Positions 4,933 to 61,112 of a DNA stretch of 64,000 bases are shown here, in pieces. The position numbers and the translations under genes were made by a program. The notes below the pieces were generated by a model. That model did not search any database and was not told the origin of the DNA. It saw only the letters and a program-made list of their open reading frames with translations. The first letter of the stretch is position 1. Each line of letters starts with the position of its first letter. The DNA lies in assembly GCA_017463485.1 (NCBI GenBank), contig JAFTPD010000015.1, positions 1 through 64,000 on the forward strand. The letters are read 5' to 3'. Origin of the DNA: Clostridia bacterium. GTDB taxonomy: Bacteria; Bacillota; Clostridia; Oscillospirales; CAG-272.

Positions 4933-5211
4933 TCATTCCGCCTCTTTGGGTAGCATTACCTCCAGCATCATTTTCGCTCCCAGCCGAAACGCATACGCGA
5001 ATATCTCGCGCTCGTTTATGTCCGTCAGCTCGGCAAAGCAATCGTCGAATTTTTCAAATATCTCCTTTTGCTCGTCCGTGAGCGTTTTGTGTAGATTGTC
5101 GTGGTGCCTTGCAATATACTCCATCAGTTGCCTTGCTGTCGGTGTTGACTCCCGACAGTCGGTGTTGGGGCAGACGTTGCCGTACCACAGCTCTTCAAGC
5201 GTGCTTTTCAT
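4933..5211 (-). CDS. DUF6809-like small protein of unknown function
   Basis: The 92-residue protein starts MKSTLEELWYGNVCPNTDC and ends in a helical segment containing FAYAFRLGAKMMLEVM. This resembles a family of small Clostridia proteins (DUF6809) with an EELWYGN-like start and a GFRLGA-like end; the assignment is from memory. The start ATG (5209-5211) has GGAGGTG five bases upstream and overlaps the stop of a 15-codon upstream ORF as ATGA, so translation is probably coupled. Upstream lies a structured RNA with its own promoter and terminator. The same frame stays open further upstream through that RNA, but the pairing pattern argues that part is not coding. Function unknown. Confidence 0.7.
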   Translation of the reverse strand: MKSTLEELWYGNVCPNTDCRESTPTARQLMEYIARHHDNLHKTLTDEQKEIFEKFDDCFAELTDINEREIFAYAFRLGAKMMLEVMLPKEAE

Positions 5212-5255: not shown

Positions 5256-5269
5256 TTTGCTTCCTCCGA

Positions 5270-5486
5270 AAAATAAAAAGTGCGGCTACCGAAGCAACCG
5301 CACAAAAAACGCAAACTCCGATAGTCGCCAAACCAACTGAGGTAGCAAGAACCGTATGCCCTCTTATCTTATCCCCAGTAGGAATTTGCATTTTTAACAA
5401 ATTCATTATAGGTATAAAATAAGAAGGTATAGCTATCCCACAGGTATAAAAATAGCTCTTGCTACAAAATGTTCAGTTGGTTTGGC
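5270..5486 (-). ncRNA. Structured RNA element, copy 1 (unidentified family)
   Basis: Predicted transcript from 5486 to about 5270. A closing helix P1 pairs GCCAAACCAACTGA (5486-5473) with TCAGTTGGTTTGGC (5340-5327), 14 perfect bp. P2 is GTAGCAAGA with TCTTGCTAC (5465-5457 with 5350-5342). A small hairpin AGCTAT/ATAGCT follows, then a 13-bp helix (5426-5414 with 5372-5360, two G-U pairs) and an apical hairpin GAATTTG/CAAATTC (5404-5398 with 5388-5382). After P1 comes the linker GACTATCGGAG and then a terminator with a UUCG loop (5303-5280) and TTTTTATTTTT. Copy 2 (14503-14728) shows compensatory changes in every long helix while the apical hairpin, linker and terminator are almost identical. 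I do not recognise an Rfam family. It may be an independent sRNA or a terminator-based switch for the gene behind it. Confidence 0.75.
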
Positions 5487-5492
5487 ATAATC

Positions 5493-5521
5493 ATTATAGC
5501 ACGTTTTTTGAGAAAAATCAA
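5493..5521 (-). promoter_or_regulatory. Sigma-A promoter of structured RNA copy 1
   Basis: Minus-strand TTGATT (5521-5516), 17-base spacer, TATAAT (5498-5493). Six bases after the -10 box the first GCC of helix P1 begins, so the RNA 5' end would be the base of the helix. Confidence 0.8.
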
Positions 5522-7978: not shown

Positions 7979-8014
7979 AGCAGTTAACATATTTTAACTT
8001 AAGGAGGGTTGGTC

Positions 8015-9526
8015 TTGATACATATTAGTGTTAGTGACGCGAAAATGAAAATCCTGCGAATACTCTGCCTGTGCCTTGCGCTTGCTACCGTGCTGGGTTG
8101 CTTCGTAGCCTGCGACAACGGAGGCTCGGACGAAACTCAAAGCGCCGGCGGCTCTACTGCGACAAGCACCGAGGAAACTACCGAGGCGGAAACGCTGGAT
8201 GATGCCACTGCTACCTACAATTCTATCTCCAACGAGGATGTGAATTGGGGCGGTGGAGATTTCACTATACTTTGCAGTAAGTACAACGGCGACAACCTGC
8301 AAGAGCTTATCAGCTACGGTCAGAGCGGCGACGTTCTCCCCAACGCGGTATTTGAAAGAAACACAAGGTTTGAGGATAAATGCAACCTGAAGCTGTCCTA
8401 CGTTGAAGCCAAGGATAAGGACGACGCTTATACCAAGGCACAGAAGGAGGTTCAGGGAAACACCGGCGATCTTCATTATTTCACAATAGACCACGCGACC
8501 ACCGCATCCCTTGCGGTAGAAGGAAATCTTTATAATTTCCTTGATATGGATATTGATCTTGAAAAGGACTGGTGGGACCAGGGTACGTATTCCTTCAACA
8601 TGGAGGGTCACGTATTCTTTATGAACGGATCGTGGAATTTCTCTGACGACCGTTTGACTTGGTGTATGCTGTTCAACAAGAAATCCTACGAGCTTCAGCA
8701 GTACGAGGATCCGTACCAGATGGTGCTTGACGGTAAGTGGACGCTTGCAAAGTTCAACGAGCTCATTCAGGGCTTCTCCTTTGACAGCAACGGTGACGGT
8801 AACTACGACGATCAGGATATCTACGGCTTCGTTGCAACGCCCCATTACAGTAATGCATTGTTCTTCGGTGCAGGACTCAGATATGTAAACATGAACAAGG
8901 ACGATTATCCTACGCTCGCACTGTCTGAGGACTCGGGAATGATGGACAGAGCTGCTGCATTGGTGGACGACGTTATTACGCTGTATACCGCAAACAACGC
9001 AACCTACCGTCCTGCCGACTTCCAGACCGCGTATGCTATGTTTAAAAACAATCAGGCACTGTTCTACGGTGAGTGCGTGTCTTACGTTATCAACCTGAAC
9101 AAGGAATATGAGGGAAGCTTTGGCGTTCTGCCCGTGCCGAAATACGGTGATGATCAGACGGAGTATTATACCTTCACTCAGTCCTTCTCGTCGACTTTGG
9201 CGGTTCCTACAACGATAAGAAAGTCCGAGATGATAGGCGATATCACACAGGTGTTCTCCATTCTGTCGCATCAGCTCGTTTTCCCTGCGTTCTATGACGT
9301 AGTTCTTACCTCCAAGAGCGTTAAGGACCCTCAGTCCGTAGAAATGCTCAACATTATTTTCCAAAACCGCGTTTACGATCTTTCCACCTATTTTGAAAAG
9401 CTGGAGCTTGCGGGAATGTTTGAGAGATCCGCAGAGAGCGGAACCAACAACTTCAGCCGCGACCACAAGTCCGTTGCCCGTTCCTTTAATAAGAACGTAA
9501 AGGCTCTGTTTAAAAATCTGGGTTGA
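8015..9526 (+). CDS. Extracellular solute-binding lipoprotein (paralogue 1)
   Basis: About 503 residues. The N-terminus has a basic segment, a hydrophobic stretch and a lipobox-like GCFVAC-DNG, so it is probably lipid-anchored outside the membrane. The body resembles carbohydrate-type extracellular solute-binding proteins (Trp/Tyr-rich ligand region, FGVLPVPKY motif, C-terminal hinge helix). A DSNGDGNYDDQD stretch looks like a calcium-binding loop. TTG 8015-8017 is the best start because GGAGGG sits 6 bases upstream; the ATG at 8045 has no site. A close paralogue follows at 9706. No permease or ATPase genes are nearby, so the substrate and transporter are unknown. Confidence 0.75.
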   Translation: MIHISVSDAKMKILRILCLCLALATVLGCFVACDNGGSDETQSAGGSTATSTEETTEAETLDDATATYNSISNEDVNWGGGDFTILCSKYNGDNLQELISYGQSGDVLPNAVFERNTRFEDKCNLKLSYVEAKDKDDAYTKAQKEVQGNTGDLHYFTIDHATTASLAVEGNLYNFLDMDIDLEKDWWDQGTYSFNMEGHVFFMNGSWNFSDDRLTWCMLFNKKSYELQQYEDPYQMVLDGKWTLAKFNELIQGFSFDSNGDGNYDDQDIYGFVATPHYSNALFFGAGLRYVNMNKDDYPTLALSEDSGMMDRAAALVDDVITLYTANNATYRPADFQTAYAMFKNNQALFYGECVSYVINLNKEYEGSFGVLPVPKYGDDQTEYYTFTQSFSSTLAVPTTIRKSEMIGDITQVFSILSHQLVFPAFYDVVLTSKSVKDPQSVEMLNIIFQNRVYDLSTYFEKLELAGMFERSAESGTNNFSRDHKSVARSFNKNVKALFKNLG

Positions 9527-9556
9527 TCACTGTAATAGATCTTTGAATTTTATATT

Positions 9557-9593
9557 GGCACACCGCAAAGGAGAGCTTTCTTGGCGGTGTGCC
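9557..9593 (+). other. Hairpin after the first solute-binding gene
   Basis: GGCACACCGC (9557-9566) pairs with GCGGTGTGCC (9584-9593). There is no T-tract. A diverged copy with the same ACACCGCAAAG core follows the paralogue (11236-11264), so gene and hairpin were duplicated together. Confidence 0.6.
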
Positions 9594-9637
9594 TATGAAT
9601 TATAATAAAGCAGAGTCGTGCTGGTCTGGAAATCCGA

Positions 9638-9666
9638 TTGACAAAATCTGACGAATGGTATATAAT
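9638..9666 (+). promoter_or_regulatory. Sigma-A promoter of the second solute-binding lipoprotein
   Basis: TTGACA, 17-base spacer, TATAAT; transcription would start about 30 bases upstream of the ATG. Confidence 0.8.
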
Positions 9667-9705
9667 ATCATTACTATATCACTACTATCGAGGAGGACAA
9701 CGAAT

Positions 9706-11211
9706 ATGCATGTTAAAATGAAGAAAAATGTGTGCACAAGACTGATATGTCTTTGCCTCACTCTGTCCGTTTTCGCGGGATGCCTTGCAGCTTGCAACGG
9801 GAACAATGCAGATGTTGAAAGTACAACTGCCGAATCTACATCTCAGAACCCCGACATCGTCTCCGACACGCTGGATGAAGCCGAGGCTGCACTTAACGCG
9901 ATATCCTCCGACGACGTGGACTGGGGAGGGAAGGAACTTACCTTTTTGTACTCGGTCTATAATACCGATAATCCCACCGAGCTTATTAGTGAGGAAAAAA
10001 CGGGTGATGTGCTTCCCGATGCGGTTTGTGAGAGAAATGTAAAGTTTGAGGACAGATGTAATCTTACCCTTTCGTTTTCTCCGACAGACAGCGAGGATGA
10101 TGCTTTTGCCAAGGCGCAAAGGGAGGTGCAGGGAAGTGTCGGAGACGCTCAGTACTTCACGTTAGACCATAAAACCACGGCGGCTCTTGCTGTTGAGGGG
10201 TATCTTTACAATTTTCTTGATCTTAATATCGATCTTGAAAAGGACTGGTGGGACGAGGGTACGTATTCCTTTAACATGGAGGATCACGTATTCTTTATGA
10301 ACGGATCGTGGAACTATTCCGACGACCGCTTGACTTGGTGTATGCTGTTTAATAAGTCGGCATATGCACTTCAGGCATATCAAGGCGAGGACGCGGATCT
10401 TTATCAGCTTGTCCTTGACGGTAAGTGGACAGTTGATAAATTCAACAACCTCATTCAGAATTTCTCGTCTAATAACGGCGATGGGCGGTGGGATGAGGAA
10501 GATTCCTACGGCTTTGTGGCAACGCCTCATTACAGTAATGCCTTTTTCTTCGGCGCGGACTTGAGATATGTCAATATGCACGAGGACGGTTATCCTACCC
10601 TTGCCCTGTCGGACGATAGCGGAATGATGGAAAGAGCAGCCGAAATGGTGGAAAAGGTGGTGTCAATATACACCGCAAATCACGCTACCTATCGCGCGGC
10701 AGAGTTCCAAGTAAGCTATGAGATGTTTAAAGCTAATCAAGCGTTGTTCTATGGAGAGATCGTGTCATTCGTTATTAACTGTAACAAGGCGTATGAGGGA
10801 CAGTTTGGAGTGCTTCCCGTCCCGAAGTACGACGAAGCGCAGGAGAAATATTGTACCTACGTCACGCCCTTCGCCTGTACGCTTTCCTTGCCTGTCAACG
10901 TGCAAGGAACGGATAAACTGGGGGATATAACGCAGACGTATGCGATTTTGTCCGATCAGCTTGTCTTTCCCGTGTTTTACGAGGTCGTTCTTACCACTAA
11001 ATCGGTAAAGGATGAGCAGTCGGTAAAGATGTTGGATCTTATTCTTGGAAATCGCGTGTACGACATATCAAATTACTTTGAAAATCTTGGCATGGCGGGG
11101 CTTTTCGAGCGGTCTGCTGAAAACGGAAACAATAATTTTTCTCGCGACTATGCATCCGTGAAGAGAGGTTTTTCAAAGCAGGTCAGGAAGCTATTTGACA
11201 AGCTTGACTGA
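9706..11211 (+). CDS. Extracellular solute-binding lipoprotein (paralogue 2)
   Basis: A 501-residue lipoprotein with signal peptide and a GCLAAC lipobox near residue 25, followed by a short Ser/Thr-rich linker. It aligns along its whole length with the preceding gene (shared LEKDWWD, GTYSFNM, HVFFMNGSWN, YGFVATPHYSNA, FGVLPVPKY, NNFSRDY). The most conserved stretch is the presumed ligand pocket, so both probably bind similar molecules, likely glycans. GAGGAGG lies 9 bases before the ATG. It may be cotranscribed with the MgtC-like gene 86 bases downstream. Confidence 0.8.
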   Translation: MHVKMKKNVCTRLICLCLTLSVFAGCLAACNGNNADVESTTAESTSQNPDIVSDTLDEAEAALNAISSDDVDWGGKELTFLYSVYNTDNPTELISEEKTGDVLPDAVCERNVKFEDRCNLTLSFSPTDSEDDAFAKAQREVQGSVGDAQYFTLDHKTTAALAVEGYLYNFLDLNIDLEKDWWDEGTYSFNMEDHVFFMNGSWNYSDDRLTWCMLFNKSAYALQAYQGEDADLYQLVLDGKWTVDKFNNLIQNFSSNNGDGRWDEEDSYGFVATPHYSNAFFFGADLRYVNMHEDGYPTLALSDDSGMMERAAEMVEKVVSIYTANHATYRAAEFQVSYEMFKANQALFYGEIVSFVINCNKAYEGQFGVLPVPKYDEAQEKYCTYVTPFACTLSLPVNVQGTDKLGDITQTYAILSDQLVFPVFYEVVLTTKSVKDEQSVKMLDLILGNRVYDISNYFENLGMAGLFERSAENGNNNFSRDYASVKRGFSKQVRKLFDKLD

Positions 11212-14091: not shown

Positions 14092-14484
14092 TCACGATTT
14101 ATTTCCGAAAAGGCGCTCAAAAGCCTCTTGCTTTTTATAATCCTCTTCCGATATCACGCCTTCTTCGCGAAGCCGCTCGGCTTCAGCATACTTGGAATTT
14201 TTATCTGAAACCTTGTCAGCTTGTTCGCAAGTAGCCTTATCCTCGTAGGATGAGGTATTATATTCGATTTTTGCCGCAATATCTATAAGCTCACCGAATC
14301 CGTATATCATCACAAATGATATCCATGCGAGAACAGTGCCCAGCACAATAATTACAATTCCTGTAATTATTCCGGTACTGCCCCCAAACATACAAACGAC
14401 ACCTGCGACTACAGCAACCAAAACTTCCAAAACGGCGATAACCGCAGCCAATGATTTGATTGTTTTTCCAATTTTGCCATACAT
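14092..14484 (-). CDS. Small membrane protein with C-terminal SHOCT-like domain
   Basis: The 130-residue protein has two hydrophobic helices (about 12-32 and 36-64), a charged linker, and a C-terminal segment AEAERLREEGVISEEDYKKQ (about 100-119) that fits the SHOCT pattern, a short domain found at the ends of many membrane proteins. Function unknown. ATG 14482-14484 follows AAGGAGG with an 8-base gap, and the ribosome binding site begins only about 10 bases after the T-tract of the structured RNA (copy 2), so expression may depend on read-through of that terminator. Confidence 0.8.
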   Translation of the reverse strand: MYGKIGKTIKSLAAVIAVLEVLVAVVAGVVCMFGGSTGIITGIVIIVLGTVLAWISFVMIYGFGELIDIAAKIEYNTSSYEDKATCEQADKVSDKNSKYAEAERLREEGVISEEDYKKQEAFERLFGNKS

Positions 14485-14502: not shown

Positions 14503-14728
14503 AAAATAAAAAGTGCGGCTACCGAAGCAACCGCACAAAAACGCAAACTCCGATAGTCGCCAAACTAACTTTACGTGAAAAAGAGTGTAACACACTTTCA
14601 TTTGTCGTAAGAGGAATTTGCATTTTATCAAATTCATCGACAAATGAAAGCATACCCGAAAAAGAGTATACCTATCCCTAAAAATAAAGATAGTACACCC
14701 ATTTTTCACGTTATTAAGTTAGTTTGGC
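14503..14728 (-). ncRNA. Structured RNA element, copy 2 (unidentified family)
   Basis: Predicted transcript from 14728 to about 14503. P1 GCCAAACTAACTT (14728-14716) pairs with AAGTTAGTTTGGC (14571-14559). P2 ACGTGAAAAA with TTTTTCACGT (14711-14702 with 14582-14573) continues into GGGTGTA/TACACTC. Hairpins CTATC/GATAG and GTATAC/GTATGC follow, then a 13-bp perfect helix (14650-14638 with 14607-14595) capped by GAATTTG/CAAATTC (14635-14629 with 14620-14614). The linker GACTATCGGAGTTTGCG and the UUCG-loop terminator (14536-14513) match copy 1 almost base for base. Helix sequences differ from copy 1 but stay paired. Reading frames are not kept between the copies, so an RNA product is favoured. 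It precedes the SHOCT-type membrane protein. Confidence 0.78.
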
Positions 14729-14734
14729 ACATAC

Positions 14735-14763
14735 ATTGTATCACGGAATGTGGTGTTTGTCAA
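14735..14763 (-). promoter_or_regulatory. Sigma-A promoter of structured RNA copy 2
   Basis: Minus-strand TTGACA (14763-14758), 17-base spacer, TACAAT (14740-14735), then six bases before the first GCC of helix P1, exactly the arrangement seen at copy 1. Confidence 0.8.
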
Positions 14764-60969: not shown

Positions 60970-61112
60970 AGTGGAGCTTGATGTGCGTTGATGCAGGAGG
61001 TTGCTCGCAGGATTCCGATGTCCTGAGAGGTAATTTCTGCGGAGTATGTCCGAAAATCGGGCGAAAAAAGCTTTCGGCAAGCGCAAATGTGTGTACCTTA
61101 ACCCGTAGTATG

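Follow-up and report, generated by a model that had tools for sequence, protein, structure and literature searches.

Pseudoknotted riboswitches that attenuate transcription are represented by SAM-I/IV, preQ1 and c-di-GMP-II, and the ribosomal protein L20 leader (RF00558) combines a long-range pairing with a terminator. A human-microbiome survey (PMC8040213) presents thousands of candidate RNAs, many of them in possible 5' UTRs of gut bacteria. Here we describe an element, with two copies in a 64,000-nucleotide stretch of a Clostridia bacterium (contig JAFTPD010000015.1, positions 1 to 64,000; the window), which is probably a structured 5' leader of this general type, that is, a predicted riboswitch-like transcription attenuator with a refolding switch.

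The RNA is real, and the observation from which this study started holds. Both minus-strand loci of the original prediction, at 5486-5270 and 14728-14503, are present where they had been placed, and they fold in the same way, with folding-energy z-scores of -8.95 (copy 1) and -10.98 (copy 2) and with 0 of 200 shuffles matching the native folding energy in either copy. The exchange of the closing helix P1, from CCAACTGA/TCAGTTGG in copy 1 to CTAACTT/AAGTTAG in copy 2, can be read directly from the sequence, as can a second helix and a long helix (13-14 bp) whose sequences are unrelated between the two copies. The apical GAATTTG/CAAATTC, the linker GACTATCGGAG and a terminator with a UUCG loop and a U-tract are present in both. 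At three or fewer mismatches, the window has exactly two matches to the linker block GGCGACTATCGGAGTTTGCG; two matches were obtained in 0 of 100 shuffles, and such a pair is not expected by chance. The features of the two copies are listed below; the small P3 hairpin of copy 1 was drawn by reading and is absent from the computed fold.

5264-5486, minus strand: copy 1 leader RNA, from the start of P1 to just past the terminator U-tract (sequence, fold, covariance-model score of 108.1 bits)
5473-5486, minus strand: copy 1, 5' strand of P1, partner 5340-5327 (fold, covariation)
5327-5340, minus strand: copy 1, 3' strand of P1 (fold, covariation)
5454-5465, minus strand: copy 1, 5' strand of P2, partner 5353-5342 (fold, covariation)
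5426-5439, minus strand: copy 1, P3 segment GGGATAGCTATACC (sequence conserved in the long form)
5361-5425, minus strand: copy 1, P4 helix, strands 5425-5409 and 5377-5361 (fold, covariation)
5404-5398, minus strand: copy 1, GAATTTG of the apical element P5 (GAATTTG/CAAATTC), within P4
5381-5389, minus strand: copy 1, predicted pseudoknot strand GCAAATTCC in the apical element (pairing counts, covariation)
5311-5319, minus strand: copy 1, linker strand GGAGTTTGC, predicted pseudoknot partner of 5389-5381 (pairing counts, covariation)
5316-5328, minus strand: copy 1, predicted antiterminator 5' strand GCGACTATCGGAG, overlapping the end of P1 and the pseudoknot strand (pairing tests)
5282-5294, minus strand: copy 1, predicted antiterminator 3' strand CTTCGGTAGCCGC, in the terminator loop and 3' arm (pairing tests)
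5275-5303, minus strand: copy 1, predicted intrinsic terminator with a 10-bp stem, UUCG loop and U-tract (fold, terminator pairing)
5493-5521, minus strand: copy 1, predicted promoter, -35 TTGATT (5521-5516), 17-nt spacer, -10 TATAAT (5498-5493) (sequence, family profile)
4936-5211, minus strand: ORF behind copy 1, 92 aa, DUF6809 family (PF20648, 91.7 bits; Pfam)
14503-14728, minus strand: copy 2 leader RNA (sequence, fold, covariance-model score of 101.2 bits)
14735-14763, minus strand: copy 2, predicted promoter, -35 TTGACA (14763-14758), 17-nt spacer, -10 TACAAT (14740-14735) (sequence, family profile)
14613-14621, minus strand: copy 2, predicted pseudoknot strand GCAAATTCC (pairing counts, covariation)
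14543-14551, minus strand: copy 2, predicted linker strand of the pseudoknot, GGAGTTTGC (pairing counts, covariation)
14548-14560, minus strand: copy 2, predicted antiterminator 5' strand, 3' strand at 14527-14515 (pairing tests)
14508-14536, minus strand: copy 2, predicted terminator and U-tract (fold, terminator pairing)
14095-14484, minus strand: ORF behind copy 2, 130 aa, with a strong Shine-Dalgarno sequence at 14499-14493 (sequence)

By reading, the product of the ORF behind copy 2 resembles a small membrane protein; it gave no match in the Pfam scan. A separate Shine-Dalgarno sequence precedes a 15-codon ORF behind copy 1 (5255-5211), and this ORF ends in an ATGA overlap with the start codon of the DUF6809 gene. 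Between the two copies, at 8009-11211, lie two adjoining and similar ORFs of 505 and 518 aa that, by reading, resemble lipoprotein solute-binding proteins.

The count of two copies stands for the window but not for the home genome (1.74 Mb, 21 contigs), which carries 14. A DNA search of this genome gave 12 matches, and a covariance model (P1, P2 and P4) built from a hand-segmented, N-padded alignment of nine home-genome copies recovered 11 copies at E <=1.4e-6, the next match being an antisense shadow of 18 bits. The remaining three are a copy truncated by a contig end, together with two short ones that score weakly with the model (30.7 and 18.2 bits) and are also DNA-search matches. When Clostridia genomes were searched with the model, many further homologues were found: 97 of 196 genomes in the family sample (52 of 71 genera, with up to 11 matches per genome), 84 of 295 in the order sample (54 of 149 genera) and 56 of 291 in the class sample, all of which are lower bounds because scoring was limited to 9 to 14 candidates per genome, under strict filters. 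In the phylum sample, which includes some class members, 1 of 299 genomes matched, the home genome alone; this indicates a limited range and few false matches, but no sharp border. The matches listed for one linker form include Oscillospiraceae and other Clostridia assembled from metagenomes, a large share of them from the guts of ruminants, deer and rabbits, and the named hosts are in general metagenome-assembled, mostly gut bacteria. For the computed comparisons we used 175 distinct copies (after removal of 8 duplicates and 3 end-cut matches) and a short-form set of 64 (after removal of 2 duplicates; 4 of the 64 were set aside in the energy tests). The two sets share at least two copies, and an antisense match (L048:1523) was excluded from both but is still present in the alignment used for covariation.

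By reading, the copies fall into two forms. In the long form, of about 155-205 nt up to the end of the linker, P1 and P2 are accompanied by a small and conserved P3 (GGGAUA..UAUACC) and by a long P4 whose tip is conserved. The short form, of about 105-155 nt, is devoid of P3 but retains the linker and terminator as well as P1 and the tip, which reads GGUAAAAAYGC. The compensatory changes first noticed between two copies extend across the family: in an alignment of 103 distinct rows, 93.5% of cells are paired compared with 66.1% in shuffles, changes occur on both sides in 41 of 50 pairs and the covariation score is 0.692 compared with 0.185; here, as in all our shuffle tests, the relatedness of the copies is left out of account. 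Pairing falls to 34-45% when partners are slid by 1-3 columns, and the 11 outer pairs of P1 show CG/UA/GC swaps at 99.8% pairing. Because this alignment was fitted to P1, P2 and P4, it leans towards those helices, and the nine pseudoknot pairs described below lie outside the model used for it. Covariation across many homologues, together with a fold that beats its shuffles, supports the reading of the element as a selected structured RNA with compensatory changes.

Several copies are of interest in their own right. A tandem array in the home genome (L009:1-1800 at the start of one contig and L010:1660-2352 at the end of another) is built of units of about 390 bp, each of which has a promoter, the RNA and a terminator, followed by a SLOG-like gene that a stop cuts after its first 27-28 codons, and the last unit carries this gene in full; since both contig ends fall inside array units, the array probably broke the assembly. 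Comparison of these tandem copies gives 94-100% identity for the linker, the terminator and the start of the ORF, and 71-84% identity with 14-41 gap positions for the RNA body, in which the stems are still paired. This stem turnover, on whose rate we make no claim because gapped identities of AT-rich stems are inflated, could be due to template switching at hairpins, among other causes. At L011:1560-1660 (minus strand), the sequence ATACCCCTTGATA lies just upstream of the RNA, overlapping the -35 box; over 13 nt it perfectly repeats, in inverted orientation, TATCAAGGGGTAT of the P2 in that copy.

The position of the element ahead of genes, which did not form part of the original prediction, is best read as that of an mRNA leader. 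Aligned on P1, the upstream regions give the profile TTGaca-N17-TGnTATAAT; the -10 box begins exactly at -12 from P1 in 138 of the 175 distinct copies, and a -35 box with at least 4 of 6 matches at a spacing of 15-19 nt is found in 126. A promoter at such a fixed distance suggests that transcription starts at the first base of P1. Downstream, 140 of 169 copies (the 175 minus 6 with less than 250 nt downstream) have a Shine-Dalgarno-like stretch together with an ORF of 40 aa or more that starts within 100 nt of the linker, compared with 15 of 166 when the same rule is applied upstream on the other strand and 10 of 157 when it is applied 1000 nt further down. As in riboswitches as a kind, a conserved structured domain thus lies in the 5' leader of genes. 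A leader-peptide attenuator was considered and rejected, as an ORF of at least five codons with a Shine-Dalgarno-like stretch occurs inside the leader in just 61 of 175 copies, at scattered positions.

Two further helices, neither of them listed originally, can be drawn from the same linker. In the first, the linker GGAGUUUGC is complementary to the apical GCAAAUUCC, which would form a pseudoknot. Its nine positions each pair in 161-174 of 174 copies (one of the 175 was left out), with a total of 1521 pairs compared with a mean of 1509.7 and a maximum of 1516 in 1000 shuffles, and joint changes are found at locus L011 (GCAAACC with GGUUUGC) and in six rows with GCGACUCC and GGAGUUCGC. In the long form, 8 of the 9 positions pair about as often as independence predicts and 6 of the 9 vary on one side alone; because most positions are nearly invariant, the excess over chance of this helix, and likewise of the antiterminator, comes from few positions. 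In the short form, in which the linker is more variable, the pseudoknot has an energy of -10.50 kcal/mol compared with -9.05 in shuffles (sd 0.21; reached in 0 of 500; 60 of the 64 copies).

In the second helix, the same linker and the end of P1 are complementary to the terminator loop and 3' arm, as expected of an antiterminator. Of 157 copies (4 of 161 linkers were left out), 90 have A-T at the clearest position, 30 have T-A and 17 have T-G, giving 140 paired compared with 79.8 expected; the other positions contribute little, and one linker position falls outside the pairing, with 33 of the 157 paired. In an alignment of 56 sequences hand-picked from 161 segments, 93.2% of antiterminator cells are paired compared with 89.7% after shuffling (reached in 0 of 500), two of the five measures are unexceptional (both-side changes, 32 of 500; further pair types, 133 of 500), and three pairs are unpaired in 9 of the 56 copies and one pair in 5. 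Terminator cells are paired at 99.1%. In 60 short-form copies the antiterminator has an energy of -13.17 kcal/mol compared with -11.83 in shuffles (sd 0.24; 0 of 500), and in the 28 that contain no UUCG in the compared stretch the values are -12.11 and -10.22 (sd 0.38; 0 of 500), indicating that the shared UUCG loop is not the whole explanation. In two genomes (L033:1675-1708 and L058:1405-1438), the terminator loop is broken at the same place by the same foreign sequence, with a TnpV transposon gene behind it.

Formation of the pseudoknot would occupy the very linker bases that the antiterminator needs, and the antiterminator in turn takes up bases needed by the terminator, so that neither pair can coexist; together, these two exclusions would associate the pseudoknot with the terminator and its absence with read-through. 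By sequence, the expression platform thus offers mutually exclusive folds that have the linker in common. We propose that pairing of the apical element with the linker behind P1 would let the terminator form and keep the gene off, and that when the pseudoknot is absent the linker would pair with the terminator loop and 3' arm, allowing RNA polymerase to read through. This refolding would take place while the RNA is being made, with a signal setting the balance of the two folds. In the isolated 3' segment, the antiterminator has a median energy of -22.2 kcal/mol compared with -15.2 for the terminator (158 of 161 copies, 3 being left out; linker forced unpaired in the terminator fold, and loop costs of the pseudoknot left out), which suggests read-through as the likely default, with stabilization of the pseudoknot switching the gene off. 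The pseudoknot has a competitor in the apical hairpin P5, which is itself kept above shuffles (1116 compared with 1093, maximum 1105); the assignment of on and off states is therefore not forced, and the polarity could be subtler. Comparison of the copies thus gives covarying P1, P2 and P4 helices, a terminator, a linker with dual complementarity kept above shuffles, a promoter at fixed distance and a position ahead of genes, and we infer that in the cell the two folds alternate, with the pseudoknot as the off state and a signal setting their balance. For mutants of the pseudoknot, the antiterminator and the terminator, the anatomy yields opposite predictions.

The genes behind the RNA are varied and poorly understood, and many of them encode exported proteins. 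A Pfam scan of 147 of the 168 downstream ORFs gave 62 families, described here from the 25 most frequent: BspA-type leucine-rich repeats lead with 14, followed by zinc ribbons (7 and 6 with two models), MazE/AbrB-like proteins (4), SHOCT (3) and SLOG-type families (2 each). In 17 of the 147 cases, for example at loci L034, L063, L090 and L183, the RNA is followed by a small ECCCDEC-like protein that is rich in Cys and has a motif resembling CLGNGEQGFECCCDECDYYLLCFPEFD. Lipoproteins are also enriched: among downstream proteins of 80 aa or more, 45 of 119 match a crude lipobox pattern of our own, compared with 28 of 285 among other ORFs (odds ratio 5.6, p 2e-10). The downstream genes have no common pathway that would name a ligand, and the breadth of the set makes the question of the signal worth a ligand screen.

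By analogy, a small molecule may be the likeliest signal. Cyclic di-GMP was considered and set aside for the home family, since no GGDEF match was found in 10 of 10 RNA-rich family genomes, so that c-di-GMP made by the cell is unlikely there; among the 20 genomes searched, GGDEF is also absent from one further genome (G482) and is present in the other 9. The DAC domain, which marks c-di-AMP synthesis, occurs in 19 of the 20 and is absent solely from the home assembly, which is 91% complete, so that c-di-AMP is a possible signal. We tentatively entertain the idea, as one that may well prove too ambitious, that the element represents a new riboswitch class that controls, throughout the class Clostridia, a global regulon for accessory and exported proteins and would sense a metabolite or second messenger to which no RNA sensor has been assigned, the apical arm, linker and terminator arm relaying a single pairing. 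In a less likely variant of the leader reading, the same folding switch could be set by a protein or by another RNA rather than by a small molecule. The limitation of conserved sequence to the apical UAAAA..GC, the P3 GGGAUA..UAUACC and the linker would suit such a trigger, and 62 Pfam families in 147 proteins would suit a global regulator; however, the 25 most frequent of these families include no ribosomal protein and no obviously autoregulated family.

It is improbable that the element is a free-standing small RNA that ends at the terminator and acts in trans, its place in front of genes being incidental. A promoter at P1, a strong terminator and two ends locked in helices would all fit such an RNA, as would one short home-genome copy (at 107428 of its contig) that has no convincing ORF behind it. 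However, the frequency of a Shine-Dalgarno stretch and ORF behind the linker is far above that at the two control places, and the complementarity between linker and terminator loop, which exceeds that in shuffles, would have no evident use in a free RNA. Least probable is that the element belongs to a mobile or selfish repeat, with hairpins maintained through its own copying rather than through regulation: the many dispersed copies, the home-genome tandem arrays with truncated ORF starts, the stems that differ more than the flanks between tandem copies and the TnpV behind 2 of 147 speak for it, but only A-richness is seen in the ten profiled positions upstream of the -35 box, no transposase recurs among the 25 most frequent families, viral_contigs (two exact patterns) and plasmids (one query) gave no match, and pseudoknot and antiterminator pairing are not expected of a repeat. 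The same two exact patterns, unmatched in viral_contigs, led us to reject a viral origin. One query did match three unannotated contigs labelled 'Bacteriophage sp.' from human faeces, in one of which (MT835845.1:2076-2235) the short form precedes a lipoprotein gene; by reading, the other ORFs of this contig look bacterial (YicC-like, aminotransferase-like) and it resembles a piece of a bacterial chromosome, which makes the phage label doubtful.

Originally the RNA had not been assigned to a family, and this agrees with Rfam 15, which at gathering cut-offs gave no match over the element in the window; the two matches above cut-off, a tRNA and an S10-Clostridia ribosomal protein leader, lie away from it, the latter at 60979-61064 with 38.5 bits. 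At E-value thresholds, both copies, six loci of the same genome and 20 short-form loci likewise gave nothing over cut-off on the element. The ribosomal protein L20 leader was rejected as its identity, because its sub-threshold scores on the two copies (23.5 and 22.5 bits) are far under the cut-off of 58.7 bits. Full-text literature searches, supplementary files and most subscription papers aside, yielded no description, nor do the passages of PMC8632094, PMC2864571 and PMC7266159 reached by term search describe the element, and a term search of PMC11109978 gave nothing. The RNA is present in half of one family's sampled genomes and in other families of Clostridia, yet it is missing from Rfam.

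Compared with described systems, the element has a long-range pairing and a terminator in common with the L20 leader but differs from it in its downstream genes: of their 62 Pfam families, the 25 most frequent contain none of ribosomal proteins. Clostridiales-1 (RF01699) and Gut-1 (RF01706) have similar hosts, but neither matches the element, the one sub-threshold Gut-1 match in a fetched locus lying outside it. The survey in PMC8040213 could include pieces of the element, although its outline, abstract and section 7 do not describe the motif. Riboswitches such as SAM-I/IV, preQ1 and c-di-GMP-II have in common with the predicted architecture of the element a 5' leader position, an aptamer-like domain closed by P1, a pseudoknot from a loop to a 3' linker that is also used by the antiterminator, and a terminator ahead of the Shine-Dalgarno sequence. 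In contrast to these riboswitches, the element has no Rfam match and its genes have no common pathway, its P1 begins at the predicted transcription start and its long stems are of almost free sequence. We rate it as what appears to be a new RNA family within a known kind, the riboswitch-like attenuators.
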